This document shows positions 6,628 to 62,939 of a DNA stretch of 64,000 bases, piece after piece. Below the pieces are notes generated by a model that saw nothing but the letters and a program-made list of their open reading frames with translations, searched no databases and had not been told where the DNA came from. The stretch covers positions 62,001 through 126,000 of the forward strand of contig CALUYU010000001.1 in the NCBI GenBank assembly GCA_944325075.1, written 5' to 3'. A program made the translations under genes and the position numbers. Source of the stretch: Candidatus Gastranaerophilales bacterium (GTDB lineage Bacteria; Cyanobacteriota; Vampirovibrionia; Gastranaerophilales; Gastranaerophilaceae). Position 1 is the first letter of the stretch; each line of letters opens with the position of its first letter.

Positions 6628-8295
6628 ATGCCAACTTGGTTCTTTAATACATTATTTTTTAACAGACCATATTATTTCTGTTCACCGGAAATAAACATGC
6701 CTCCTTTAAATAGAAATACTCCATATAATAATGTAAGAGCTATGCAGGAACAATCTTGGATTCAACGCGGTCTTGGCCCATACGGATGGACTTCAAATAT
6801 TGGCGGAAATATACAGTTTAACACATATGATCCGGATATGCCTCTAGAAAACGTTATTCAATTACAAAGAATGAACCAGGATCCAAATTATAATCCGGGC
6901 CTTGATATTTACTATAGAATGTCTGAAATGTTTGAGAATTCAACATATAATAACGACATGGCTCAAATTGCTGCAAATGCCGAAAATTCAGCAAACAGAA
7001 CAATCTTAAAAATTGAATATAGAAGTCTGCAAAGAAATATTCCGGCCTTAATCAGCAGCATTGATAAGCTGTTAGAAACTGAAGGTTTAAAACCGGAAGA
7101 TAAAAAAGGTTTAGAAAAAATAAAAAAACAAACAGAAGATTTAAAGAAAAAAATGGAAACCATGGCTGAAACTTCTTCAAACAAAAAAGTAACAGATGCA
7201 ATAGAAGAAGTAGAGGCAATGGAAGGAGAACTTCTCAAATTAAAAGAAGCTGCCGTAAAGATTGCAGAAAAAATTGCTGCATACATAAAAGAAGAAGAAG
7301 AAACAAATCCAAATGAAGATGTTGATCCGGTAACACCGGGAGAAGATGTTAATCCGGTAACTCCCGGAAATGAAGGAAATCCGGTTAATCCTATTGAAGA
7401 GGAAGAAGATCTGACTGTTGAAGAATTAAAAAATAAATATAATGAAGAATTAAAAAAAGAAGCAAATAAACTGCTTAAAGAAAAAGATCTTCATCCGGAA
7501 GATAAACAAACCATAACAGAAAAAATTCAGGCTCTAGAAACAGCTATAAGCGAAAATAAACCGGTTGAAGAATTAACAGAAATGTATAATGAATTAATCG
7601 AGCTGCTTAACACTGTTCAACAAAAACTTACAGTAAAAAATAATTTTGATGAATTAACAAAAACATATGAAAAGATGCTTAAAGAAAATAAAGATGATAT
7701 CTCTGAAGAAGATAAACAAGCAATCACTAAACAATCAAAAGAATTAGAAGCCGCAATAAAAGCAAACAAACCGCTGGAAGAACAAGTAGAGTTGTATAAT
7801 AAATTATATGAACTTGTTTGCAATGTAGCTCAAAAAGTTGTTGATAAACCGGCAAAAGATGCGCTTGAAATCTGTTCTGAAATCTATAAAGCAGCAAATG
7901 GTATTGACTGGTCAAACAGCAATGAATATAAGATAAAAGAAGCTGTAGCAAAAATAAACGAAAAGAACGTAATAGAAGTTCTTGATCAGTGGTCACAAAA
8001 CAATTATAACAAGAGTACCGGTGATACCTGCATATTAGAAACAATTTTCGGAGAATTCAAAACAGATTCAAAAACAAAACGGCTGCTTGCATATACATTT
8101 ATTAATGCTCTGAAAAAAGCTGCTGAAAAATTAGGTAAATCTAACGAAATAGCAAAACATATTGCAGTAATTGAAGGAGAAATAGATCGTACAGGATTAT
8201 TACAAACTTGGGATTACAGCGCAATATATTCTTCTTTCAACAAAATTCACGCAATACTTGGAAACCCTTTACTTGAAGGTGAACAACAACAATAA
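6628..8295 (+). CDS. Unknown protein with a Pro/Glu linker and tandem helical repeats
   Basis: The start follows a good AAAGGAG site. No signal peptide or membrane segment is evident in the 555-aa product. An aromatic N-terminal region (1-110) precedes a helical, Lys/Glu-rich part. A low-complexity linker around residues 230-262 repeats DVDPVTPG / DVNPVTPG / EGNPVNP. Two related helical units of about 70 residues follow: EELKNKYNEELKKEA...EDKQTITEK and DELTKTYEKMLKEN...EDKQAITKQ, each ending with (V/Y)NEL or YNKL. A less repetitive helical domain closes the protein. It resembles a surface or structural protein in style, but I recognise no family. It is monocistronic with a small-RNA-like unit behind it. 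Confidence 0.75.
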   Translation: MPTWFFNTLFFNRPYYFCSPEINMPPLNRNTPYNNVRAMQEQSWIQRGLGPYGWTSNIGGNIQFNTYDPDMPLENVIQLQRMNQDPNYNPGLDIYYRMSEMFENSTYNNDMAQIAANAENSANRTILKIEYRSLQRNIPALISSIDKLLETEGLKPEDKKGLEKIKKQTEDLKKKMETMAETSSNKKVTDAIEEVEAMEGELLKLKEAAVKIAEKIAAYIKEEEETNPNEDVDPVTPGEDVNPVTPGNEGNPVNPIEEEEDLTVEELKNKYNEELKKEANKLLKEKDLHPEDKQTITEKIQALETAISENKPVEELTEMYNELIELLNTVQQKLTVKNNFDELTKTYEKMLKENKDDISEEDKQAITKQSKELEAAIKANKPLEEQVELYNKLYELVCNVAQKVVDKPAKDALEICSEIYKAANGIDWSNSNEYKIKEAVAKINEKNVIEVLDQWSQNNYNKSTGDTCILETIFGEFKTDSKTKRLLAYTFINALKKAAEKLGKSNEIAKHIAVIEGEIDRTGLLQTWDYSAIYSSFNKIHAILGNPLLEGEQQQ

Positions 8296-9085: not shown

Positions 9086-9310
9086 CTATGCAATATTTAT
9101 TTTAGGCTTACCAACTATATTAATTAACATATCTATAACTTTAGGCATTTGACATTTAAAGGAATATTGACCGTTTCTAAGAGAGCATTTTTGACAATCA
9201 CATCCAATTGCGTAACATTCTAAAGCTTGCTCGGTCCAAGATTGAGTAATAGATGCAGATAATTCATTATTGGAGTTTTGAATAAATTTTTCAGATAATT
9301 TAGTTTTCAT
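9086..9310 (-). CDS. Cys-rich mini-protein (paralogue of 61622-61858)
   Basis: The 74-aa product contains WTEQALECYAIGCDCQKC and KCQM, giving Cys32, 37, 39, 42 and 53. The paralogue at 61622-61858 has the same W-T-x3-A-L-E-C-Y-x2-G-C-x-C-x2-C core, the KCQM motif and a downstream G-x-P. The spacing suggests a zinc or iron-sulfur knuckle with short helices around it. It has a strong purine-rich site (GAGGGG) before ATG 9310. The family is not one I can name; the lack of a signal peptide suggests a cytoplasmic, possibly regulatory, role. Confidence 0.75.
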   Translation of the reverse strand: MKTKLSEKFIQNSNNELSASITQSWTEQALECYAIGCDCQKCSLRNGQYSFKCQMPKVIDMLINIVGKPKINIA

Positions 9311-9404
9311 CCTTTACCACCCCTCAAAAATTTATACCTAACCCACTATTATTTTAACTTGTGAAGATTTTATTTTAATCCTTTATTTAGATGATTTTTT
9401 CTGA

Positions 9405-60348: not shown

Positions 60349-61134
60349 TTATTTAAAATAATATTCGATATCTGTATCTAAGTCTAATTTTTTTGCATTT
60401 GATCTGAATATTTTTGATTTAATCCCTAATTTTGCCAGTCTATATTTTATGCTTACCAATAAAACTCCTATTCCGTATTTGCATGAACGGACAAAATTAA
60501 TAGATGATGCCTCTTTAAAGTATTTTGTAGGGCAGGAAATTTCTCCGATATTGTAGTTGTTATAGAACATCAGGGCAATCATTTCATTATCAAAAATAAA
60601 ATCATTGTCACATTCTGCAAGCGGCAGTTCCCTTAGAACTTTTGCCGTAAATCCTCTAAATCCGGTGTGATATTCTGATAATTTTTGATTAGTTAATATA
60701 TTTTCAAATGCAGTTAAAAATTTATTTGCTATAAATTTATATAGAGGCATTCCGCCTTTAAGTGCAGAGTTTCCAAGCATTCTAGACGCAAGCACTGCAT
60801 CATATTCTTCAAATGCCATCATAGAAACTATTGCAGGAATAAGTTTCGGTGTATATTGATAATCCGGATGCAGCATCACAACGATGTCTGCTCCGGATTT
60901 CAATGCTGCTTTATAACATGATTTCTGGTTGCCGCCGTAACCTTTATTTTCCTTATGAACAATGGTTTTAATACCAAGTTTTTTTGCGACTTCTCTTGTT
61001 TCATCCTGCGAATTGTCATCCACAAGAATTATTTCATCTACAAAATCTTTATATATTTCGTCATAAGTTTGTTTTAAAGTTTTTGCCGCATTATAAGCGG
61101 GCATAATTACGATGACTTTTTTACCATTAATCAT
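60349..61134 (-). CDS. Family 2 glycosyltransferase (dolichol-phosphate mannosyltransferase-like)
   Basis: The GT-A fold start VIVIMPAYNAAKTLKQTYDEIYKDFVDEIILVDDNSQDETREVAKKLG contains the nucleotide-sugar site; MLHPDYQYTPKLIPAIVSMM carries the DxD-like region, and YHTGFRGFTAKVLRELPL is typical of DPM1/GtrB-like polyprenyl-phosphate glycosyltransferases. No C-terminal membrane helices are present in the 261 aa. It starts 4 bases after hpf and probably shares its transcript. The sugar is unknown. Confidence 0.88.
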   Translation of the reverse strand: MINGKKVIVIMPAYNAAKTLKQTYDEIYKDFVDEIILVDDNSQDETREVAKKLGIKTIVHKENKGYGGNQKSCYKAALKSGADIVVMLHPDYQYTPKLIPAIVSMMAFEEYDAVLASRMLGNSALKGGMPLYKFIANKFLTAFENILTNQKLSEYHTGFRGFTAKVLRELPLAECDNDFIFDNEMIALMFYNNYNIGEISCPTKYFKEASSINFVRSCKYGIGVLLVSIKYRLAKLGIKSKIFRSNAKKLDLDTDIEYYFK

Positions 61135-61138
61135 TTTC

Positions 61139-61495
61139 TTATTCTTCTACTGCTTCAGCTTCTTCTTTAATATCAAGTCTGATAGAAGATTTATCGGATC
61201 CTAAAGATTTATCCTTAAATTTTGCTACTTGTCTTACCAGTTTGTCGGCCAGCAGGTCTATGCTTTCGTACATTGAATCAGCGGCCTCTTCGCAACGGAC
61301 AACGCCGGTATTCATTTTGCAGGTTACTTCTGCAACATGTTTACCTGAAGCTGAAGGGTTTTTAATAACCGATAAAACTACTTCAATACCTTGAATTTGA
61401 TCGTAATGATTTGTTACTTTCCCGATTTTTTCTTTAACGTAAGCTTTAATAGCTTCTGTGATCTCGATGTTTCTTCCGTTAACGTAAATGTGCAT
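61139..61495 (-). CDS. hpf: Ribosome hibernation promoting factor, short form
   Basis: HPF/RaiA binds the 30S decoding site in starved cells and stops translation. The 118-aa product shows the single beta-alpha-beta3-alpha domain: MHIYVNGRNIEITEAIKAYVKEKIGKVTNHY, VVLSVIKNP, AEVTCKMNTGVVRCEEAADSMYESIDLLADKLVRQV. The C-terminal dimerisation domain of long HPF is missing, and an acidic tail (EEAEAVEE) ends it. GGAGGTAT precedes ATG 61495. Confidence 0.93.
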   Translation of the reverse strand: MHIYVNGRNIEITEAIKAYVKEKIGKVTNHYDQIQGIEVVLSVIKNPSASGKHVAEVTCKMNTGVVRCEEAADSMYESIDLLADKLVRQVAKFKDKSLGSDKSSIRLDIKEEAEAVEE

Positions 61496-61621
61496 GTATA
61501 CCTCCGTGTTAAAATACTGCCTTAATAGTATAACACAATATATTATTTTTTTAAAGGGTATACGGAAAATTAATTATACGAATTATACTCTTTTAAAAAA
61601 CGGAAATATATTTTGCTTATT

Positions 61622-61858
61622 TTAATCTTCAATTAAAAACTGTTGTAATTCTACATTAGGAGTTCCTATAACTCTTACGAGTTCAAGAACGGAAGCTTTC
61701 ATTTGACATTTTTGGGAAGATCCGCTGAAAAAGTCTTTATAAAAACATCCTTCACAATTGCATCCGCGTTTGTAACATTCAAGAGCAGTTGTCGTCCATC
61801 TTCTAACTGCAACAGCTCTGCCCATATCCCTACTTCTAAACAATTTAACTATCTCCAA
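61622..61858 (-). CDS. Cys-rich mini-protein (paralogue of 9086-9310)
   Basis: The product shares W-T-x3-A-L-E-C-Y-x2-G-C-x-C-x2-C, KCQM and a G-x-P near the end with the 74-aa protein at 9086-9310, although the remaining sequence differs. Counting from TTG 61858 the Cys are at 28, 33, 35, 38 and 51. A possible second start is ATG 61825 (MGRAVAV) with AGTAGGG before it. The pattern suggests metal binding. Upstream are a good promoter and a leader that may be structured. Confidence 0.75.
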   Translation of the reverse strand: MEIVKLFRSRDMGRAVAVRRWTTTALECYKRGCNCEGCFYKDFFSGSSQKCQMKASVLELVRVIGTPNVELQQFLIED

Positions 61859-61886
61859 ATTTATCTACTCACTTACACAAGAGCAT

Positions 61887-61931
61887 TCAGGTAGTCAGTA
61901 TGCCTGAAATCTCCACCCCTTTAGGCTCCAT
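61887..61931 (-). other. Possible leader peptide and hairpin before the Cys-rich gene
   Basis: Within the presumed 84-base leader a 14-codon frame (MEPKGVEISGILTT) starts 11 bases after the expected transcription start, and its stop lies in a TTCAGG/CCTGAA hairpin (61886-61908). This could be an attenuator, but the frame is short and its ribosome site weak. Confidence 0.25.
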
Positions 61932-61948
61932 GCCCTGTCGTTACTTTT

Positions 61949-61977
61949 ATGATATGTAAATCAATAAATTTTTTCAA
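61949..61977 (-). promoter_or_regulatory. Promoter of the Cys-rich gene
   Basis: TTGAAA (61977-61972), 17-base spacer, TATCAT (61954-61949) on the minus strand. The rest of the 328-base gap up to 62186 is AT-rich, with ATGATTTC/GAAATCAT arms near 62080-62108, and I see no gene in it. Confidence 0.55.
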
Positions 61978-62174
61978 TAGCGATACATGTGTATGTGAAC
62001 ATTTGTTAAGAACCTTATAATCGTTATATATTCCTGCTTTTAAGGCTCTTTATTCCCTCTTTTGTTATGTTATATCATGATTTCCATGTTTTTCCACCGT
62101 GAAATCATGCTTGTATCATGGGGTTTCATGGTTCTAAATTGTATTAAGATTTGTAAAATATTTATATATTAGTA

Positions 62175-62180
62175 TATAAT
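62175..62180 (+). promoter_or_regulatory. -10 box, leaderless start of the TIGR02757 gene
   Basis: TATAAT ends exactly six bases before ATG 62187, with TTGTAA 18 bases upstream as -35. Confidence 0.7.
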
Positions 62181-62186
62181 AAAAGT

Positions 62187-62939
62187 ATGATTACTAAATT
62201 TGAGATAGACGAAATTGCTAAAAAATATGAAACCGAGGATTTTATTAAAGCAGATCCGATCCAATTTCCGCACAGATTTAAGAACAAAAAAGATATAGAA
62301 ATTGCAGGATTTATAGCTTCTCTTGTTGCTTACGGGGCTCGTAAAGTTTTTAATAAAAAACTGGAGTCTTTGTTTGATATTGCTCAAAATGAGCCTTTAA
62401 ACTTTATTCTAAATTTTGAGGAAAAAATTTTAGGTGACTTTAACTATCGTTTTGGGAAAACGGAAGATTTTGCTCAAATTTTTTATATAATGAAAGAATT
62501 GTATTATAAAGACGGCGGCTTGGAGGAGTTGTTTAAATATGCCTTTGACCGGGTGCACACACTTAGAACTCCTTTATTCTTTAAAACCGTAACTGATTAC
62601 TTTTACTCAAGGGCTAAGGAAGGAGCCGGCCAGGGATTTTATTTTATGATTCCTAACCCCGAAAAAGGCGGAGCGATGAAGCGGATGAATATGTTTTTGC
62701 GCTGGATGGTCAGAAAACCGCCTGTAGATTTTGGTATATGGAATTGTATTCCGGCCTCTGAGCTGTTAATTCCGCTTGATGTTCATGTCGCCCGTGTCTC
62801 AAGAGAAATGGGGCTGCTTACAAGAAATTCTAATGATTTTAAAGCTGTTATTGAGCTTAGTGATAACCTGAAAAACTTTGACAGCAGCGATCCGGTAAAA
62901 TACGATTTCGCAACATTTGGCTATGGTGTAAGCAGATAG
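62187..62939 (+). CDS. TIGR02757/DUF2400 family protein
   Basis: The 250-aa product fits this family: DPIQFPHRFKNKKDIEIAGFIASLVAYGARK near the start, MKRMNMFLRWMVRKPPVDFGIWNCIPASELLIPLDVHVARVSREMGLLTR and DPVKYDFATFGYG at the end. The reaction is not established; the layout of helices recalls HhH-GPD DNA glycosylases, which is an inference. It appears monocistronic and leaderless. Confidence 0.88.
   Translation: MITKFEIDEIAKKYETEDFIKADPIQFPHRFKNKKDIEIAGFIASLVAYGARKVFNKKLESLFDIAQNEPLNFILNFEEKILGDFNYRFGKTEDFAQIFYIMKELYYKDGGLEELFKYAFDRVHTLRTPLFFKTVTDYFYSRAKEGAGQGFYFMIPNPEKGGAMKRMNMFLRWMVRKPPVDFGIWNCIPASELLIPLDVHVARVSREMGLLTRNSNDFKAVIELSDNLKNFDSSDPVKYDFATFGYGVSR

Follow-up and report, generated by a model that had tools for sequence, protein, structure and literature searches.

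We identified two small cysteine-rich proteins in a 64,000-nucleotide stretch of DNA (the window) from a genome of the Gastranaerophilaceae, a non-photosynthetic sister of the cyanobacteria, and homology places both in an undescribed family that has long been kept by bacteria and is also carried by viruses. Protein B (B-type member; positions 9086 to 9310, minus strand, 74 amino acids, ATG start) was delimited by its open reading frame and its homology to A, and protein A (A-type member; positions 61622 to 61843, minus strand, 73 amino acids, TTG start at 61843-61841) by its open reading frame and the conservation of its start codon. Computation established that the two proteins are homologous, how well they and their promoters are conserved, where the family occurs, which genes surround it and where translation starts; from this we infer metal binding, contact with DNA or RNA polymerase, and target regulation by A and B. 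Our best explanation, to which we give an even chance, is that A and B are two ancient paralogues and act as small, helical regulators of transcription with a tetracysteine site for Zn or Fe-S.

Core genes without known function in a widespread gut lineage rarely acquire a testable role. This family, kept across part of its class and in phages, with A ahead of a hibernation factor, offers a way to study dormancy, the sensing of redox state or metals, and control between phage and host among close cyanobacterial relatives living without light.

Homology and cysteine anatomy of A and B

By direct comparison with BLASTP (a single comparison), A and B are homologues, with 21 of 64 positions identical (33%, E 6e-13). 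This bears out the initial annotation, which had proposed two related cysteine-rich open reading frames; both are present on the minus strand. A search of the genome with one of the proteins recovered, besides the query, the second protein (E 1.6e-8) and a third, sub-significant match (E 0.195) in a 664-residue frame (L003), where the family profile gave no match; only A and B qualify as members within this genome. The core common to both reads W-T-x2-A-L-E-C-Y-x2-G-C-x-C-x2-C, followed by KCQM and G-x-P, with the core letters WTEQALECY in one protein and WTTTALECY in the other. The motif first described for the pair thus holds for C-x4-C-x-C-x2-C-x(10 or 12)-C, KCQM and G-x-P, but its W-T-x3-A should read W-T-x2-A.

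To describe the family beyond this pair, we aligned 71 distinct rows. The W, the first, third and fourth cysteines (C1, C3 and C4) and a G were present in all 71, and the fifth cysteine (C5) and the P in 70. The second cysteine (C2) occurred in 48 of the 71 rows, with Ala as its commonest replacement. What had been called a conserved five-cysteine core is therefore a set of four near-invariant cysteines (70-71 of 71) plus an optional one, spaced C-x6-C-x2-C-x(8 to 26)-C for the four, with a loop of variable length ahead of C5. Because only four cysteines are near-invariant, the candidate metal site has four ligands, and metal binding by A and B is plausible. Both proteins fit the family pattern W-x3-[AS]-x2-C-[YFH]-x5-C-x2-C ... 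C-x-[ML] ... G-x-P. Structure prediction, which the initial annotation had suggested, gave an AlphaFold2 model of A with three short helices; mean pLDDT was 70.9 with 33 rows and reached 78.5 with 34 more varied rows, with blocks 11-60 at 84-90.

We compared the domain with curated families and known folds, since a zinc-ribbon or ferredoxin assignment would have refuted the view of an unnamed family. Nothing in Pfam or NCBIfam exceeded the curated cut-offs; the best Pfam E values, 0.0019 and 0.0035, came from one member apiece. The candidates Triabin (E 0.0035), RH1 and NiFe_hyd_SSU_C (E 0.0019) each matched one protein below cut-off and were rejected. PHROGs gave no convincing match (phrog_30431, E 0.0046, matched one protein only and was rejected), and the PDB sequences gave none. 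A fold search with the model returned best E values of 8.8 and 7.1 in the PDB and 2.2 in BFVD, and a VIA structural comparison, in which only 2 chains were compared, gave no match with Z ≥ 2. The family is absent from every curated library searched here, and a search of the open-access literature with limited wording found no account of such a family.

In the regulator reading, A and B would be mostly helical proteins of about 60-80 residues in which the four near-invariant cysteines form a single site for Zn or an Fe-S cluster. This site would pack helix 1 (W-T-x2-A-x2-C-Y) against the conserved C-terminal helix (C-x-M-K-x2-V-L-x-L-V-R-x2-G-x-P), and the metal-held helices would bind to DNA or to RNA polymerase, either unaided or together with a DNA-binding protein that is fused to the domain or acts as its partner. 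Because the domain has no HTH, zinc-finger or Fe-S profile and no PDB fold neighbour, the predicted contact with DNA or polymerase is drawn from context.

Distribution in bacteria and viruses

A-type matches (E ≤ 1.4e-35) were found in 141 of 145 Gastranaerophilaceae genomes, the four exceptions being G019, G069, G081 and G142. B-type matches (E ≤ 1e-16), counted among the matches listed, occurred in 85 of 97 genomes of the family and were missing from, among others, two g41 genomes and three belonging to genus g9. A single-sequence search of 292 genomes sampled across the phylum gave one strong match outside the family (E 2e-26, sister family f2); the remaining outside matches were weak (best E 0.0035). 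Profile A2 matched 85 of 194 genomes at E ≤ 0.01, all within the family. Profile A4, applied to a class-wide sample, matched 163 of 240 genomes, including 18 genomes of f41, f45 and f46 beyond f1 and f2 and one weak match in f40 (G409, E 3.3e-4). Within this sample, A4 had no match in the listed genomes of f3, f42, f43, f44 and the remaining f40, nor in 57 further genomes. Of the 18 genomes from f41, f45 and f46, 15 have two copies and the other three a single one; the single f2 genome has A, B and a third copy. The proposal that the family is special to this lineage is not supported, nor is a family of two members only, given the relatives in f2, f41, f45 and f46, 22 viral proteins and extra chromosomal copies.

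We next considered how these copies are related. B and the class-wide B-prime type (SITQTWTDQAIKCY...CSIPKGGYSFVCQM) form one clade with support of 100/97. A-prime groups nearer B than A (95/95), so its orthology to A is not established. A lies among phage copies in both trees; A may have come from a phage, or phages may have taken it from their hosts. B stands beside repressor-linked copies in the first tree and not in the second; both trees were built on few alignment columns, and bootstrapping of the second had not converged. The non-redundant domain set kept 52 of 130 sequences, near copies being dropped. The scan of genome contigs covered the best 80 of 273 relatives, which were taken as Gastranaerophilales although a few carry the names of other taxa, so members in other phyla may be missed.

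Viral contigs contained 6 loci when scanned with A and 16 when scanned with the alignment, on partly overlapping contigs. A degenerate DNA pattern picked out 22 stretches of viral contig, and the profile found a family member in all 22. Pooled and reduced by sequence, the viral members amount to 22 distinct proteins. A scan of viral contigs with B found no viral relative, and tblastn of A, L182 and L222 against reference phages and plasmids gave no match at E ≤ 1. One further candidate, L039, was rejected because the family profile did not match it. To characterize the neighborhoods of the viral members, we ran Pfam on one representative of each neighbor cluster. The next same-strand gene belongs to a Lin1244_N-type (replication) cluster in 7 of 22 cases, and a YqaJ-type recombinase, RecT and an S24 repressor lie nearby in 7, 5 and 4 of 22, respectively. 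Under the regulator explanation, phages would deploy their copies in this early recombination and replication region.

The loci fetched for extra chromosomal copies contained a family member in 10 of 10 cases. In five of them (L240, L241, L243, L245 and L246), the member is divergent from a homologue, of about 205 residues, of the phage S24 repressor; the CI-like repressor of L240, the only one scanned, matches HTH_3 (E 1e-7), and its phage homologue matches S24. In these five loci, repressor and member form a compact module amid ordinary chromosomal genes. Several extra-copy loci have further genes in common with the viral contigs. This shared gene content, the only basis for assigning hosts, suggests that these viruses may infect this bacterial group.

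The viral neighborhoods (Lin1244_N in 7 of 22, YqaJ in 7, RecT in 5) fit a role in replication or recombination equally well, and this counts against the transcription reading. The domain might be a replication or recombination accessory whose targets, in phages and hosts alike, would be single-stranded DNA or the machinery that loads the helicase. Two chromosomal loci (L240 and L241), in which a short protein similar to the Lin1244_N-type phage gene comes after the member, point the same way. However, host A and B have no conserved replication-gene neighbor, and the associations with MerR and with repressors favor transcription; we consider this alternative rather unlikely.

The MerR association comes from a protein of the sister family f2 (L328), in which an N-terminal MerR HTH is fused to the family domain (PF13411, 25.0 bits against a cut-off of 21.6). 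This is the only fusion with a significant HTH match; an extension in L084 is weakly HTH-like (best E 0.13 in Pfam and 0.021 in PHROGs). L179 carries a C-terminal MazG-like fusion (phrog_2245, E 3.4e-12), and L248 has a similar extension. Two genes from the latter (L248:8610-9239) lies a predicted exported protein of dense Cys-Lys repeats (KCNCKEDCKCEDCKC) with a metallothionein-like look. B-prime is divergent from one gene cluster in 7 of 8 loci, and the representative of that cluster is a SpoIIE phosphatase. These MazG-like and phosphatase associations would also fit an accessory Zn module that stabilizes or targets its partners (phosphatase, MazG-like protein or repressor) and has no nucleic-acid role of its own. 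Most members are small and stand alone, however, and the partners change between clades as the domain stays constant; we consider this alternative improbable. We favor a regulator with a metal site because of the MerR fusion, the divergence from repressors and phosphatases, and the separate promoters of the paralogues. The suggestion in the initial annotation of a small regulatory family gains indirect support from the MerR fusion, the SpoIIE phosphatase next to B-prime and the different conserved promoters described below.

Gene context, start codon and promoters

Next, we determined which genes lie near A and B. Downstream of A lies hpf, which encodes a ribosome hibernation factor of the S30AE type (positions 61139 to 61495, minus strand; PF02482, E 1.8e-23) and is single copy in the genome. 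It is the next same-strand gene after A in 73 of 80 loci, and no other neighbor of A reaches half of the 80. B differs in this respect, its commonest neighbors being small opposite-strand genes found in 11 and 10 of 21 loci. The earlier view that both are single-gene copies therefore stands for B and not for A. A U32 peptidase, considered as a conserved neighbor of B, was present in only 4 of 30 B loci and was dropped. Near B, an open reading frame of 555 amino acids (positions 6628 to 8295) is repetitive and rich in Glu and Lys; Pfam gave nothing for it at E ≤ 0.001.

The gap between A and hpf measures 57-246 nt across 116 loci. In the window this gap has no terminator-like site but contains a second promoter-like site before hpf, so co-transcription of A and hpf is likely but not certain. 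The link between the two could mean a ribosomal role, which speaks against the transcription reading. A would then act with HPF in hibernation, and B would be a paralogue with another trigger. The constancy of hpf among otherwise varying neighbors, its single copy, and the structured leader and fixed non-ATG start of A are consistent with this. Yet 6 of the 80 A loci have no same-strand hpf despite 2.5-5 kb of downstream sequence, 20 loci retrieved from f2, f41, f45 and f46 gave no hpf match, phage and MerR-fused members do not fit such a role, and the promoter-like site leaves co-transcription uncertain. On balance we regard a translation factor as quite improbable and keep to the regulator explanation, in which A and B would belong to the core genes of the hosts, each with its own control.

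The start of A was examined across 130 distinct A loci. Ahead of [FLYV][RK]SRD[MLF]G, 108 loci have TTG and 20 have GTG, and ATG never takes this place; the remaining two loci are viral and have an ATG slightly farther upstream. In the window, A begins MFRSRDMGR... from TTG 61843. A longer frame (61622-61858, 78 amino acids, also from TTG) had been proposed, but a start at 61858 would place the Shine-Dalgarno GGAG (positions 61853 to 61856, minus strand, 9 nt ahead of the TTG, similar in other listed A loci) within the gene, and with 128 of 130 loci agreeing, the start is most likely TTG 61843. A weak non-ATG start that is constant across the lineage may tune translation.

The promoters of A and B differ and each is conserved. 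For A, 125 of 130 loci have a sigma70-like pair of the type TTGAAA-16/17-TATAAT at a distance of 72-146 nt upstream of the start; in the window it is TTGAAA-17-TATCAT (positions 61949 to 61977, minus strand). An HLR1-like element, TTAACAAATGTTCACATA (positions 61992 to 62009, minus strand), lies 14 nt before the -35 box and agrees at 14 of 16 positions with the direct repeat (G/T)TTACA(T/A)(T/A)-N2-repeat. We scored 106 of 109 non-redundant promoters, drawn from 128, and found agreement of at least 13/16 in 87 of them, compared with 4.5% of Markov-resampled (shuffled) controls; 73 of these 87 elements lie exactly 14 nt ahead of the -35 box. According to our model, A would be driven by this strong promoter with its HLR1-like site, together with or adjoining hpf.

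Between promoter and start lies the 5' leader of A (about 61844 to 61942, minus strand), in which possible hairpins were seen by eye at 61935-61923 and 61908-61886 around AGGGGTGGAGATT; the minimum free energy (MFE) fold of this leader differs from these two hairpins. RNAalifold gave no consensus structure for the joint alignment of 125 A leaders, so leader structure was assessed by shuffle tests only. The 91 non-redundant leaders (of 125, near copies dropped) are stabler than their shuffles, with a mean MFE z of -1.78, and of the 78 leaders that contain a conserved GGGG as anchor, 74 have a hairpin immediately ahead of it that outperforms the shuffled versions. Rfam names no known RNA in 61000-62300, where it gave four chance-level matches only. 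Two other candidates were dropped: a raiA motif upstream of hpf, which had no Rfam match, and a conserved leader peptide upstream of A, for which several leaders read by eye showed no conservation. Upstream of A (window 61844-62009), a structured leader and a strong promoter are thus combined with an element resembling the HLR1 of RpaB. A control element known from photosynthetic cyanobacteria and retained by a non-photosynthetic relative would deserve separate study.

B would be driven by a promoter with a conserved box of its own. This box, AATCATCTAAATAAAGGATT, is a partly inverted repeat at the -35 position (positions 9377 to 9396, minus strand) and is seen with a -10-like TTAAAAT (positions 9351 to 9357, minus strand). 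The box in the form AAATARAGGATTAAA, together with TTAAAAT, was recognized in 17 of 21 B loci; AGGAT is present in 19 of 21, whereas only 8 of the 21 show an inverted repeat that scores 6/8 or better. With zero mismatches, the box occurs once in the genome, ahead of B; this lack of a second exact copy, with no target gene emerging, counts against the transcription reading. A looser pattern found one more place, as did a backward control. A wider regulon was rejected, with no second clear copy in the genome and 2-mismatch matches near control level. Taking the place of a -35 hexamer, the box is possibly a site for B itself or for a dedicated activator.

Comparison with known systems

The cyanobacterial lrtA gene, of the HPF family, has a long structured leader that stabilizes its transcript and hampers translation (PMC4956104). 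The A locus likewise pairs an hpf-family gene with a structured 5' leader, but here the leader belongs to a small cysteine gene ahead of a short hpf, and Rfam names no RNA. The HLR1 site of RpaB is given in PMC9241938 as a direct repeat of (G/T)TTACA(T/A)(T/A) with 2 nt between the copies. A similar direct repeat lies upstream of A, though the repeats there are imperfect, none of the 106 promoters reaching 16/16.

Phages also carry genes for WhiB-like (Wbl) proteins. According to PMC6282962, the Wbl proteins of Actinobacteria are helical, of about 80-140 amino acids, with four invariant cysteines and several chromosomal paralogues, and their G(V/I)WGG motif follows the last cysteine. The family of A and B is also small and helical, with four near-invariant cysteines and paralogues, but the likeness is one of style only: its cysteines follow C-x6-C-x2-C-xn-C, whereas those of WhiB1 are C9, C37, C40 and C46, and the Actinobacteria are another phylum. 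The Wbl profile of Pfam matched neither A or B (E ≤ 10) nor 33 members (E ≤ 1), and none of the 34 rows in alignment A4 contains the G(V/I)WGG motif. As both profile and motif are absent, the family is not Wbl and is unrelated to it by sequence. A bolder scenario, which we think unlikely, is that the non-photosynthetic sister lineage of cyanobacteria evolved, independently, its own counterpart of the Wbl system, with metal-cluster sensors that would bind the transcription machinery in phages and, as the core paralogues A and B, in hosts; A may then be a phage early regulator turned companion of hpf.
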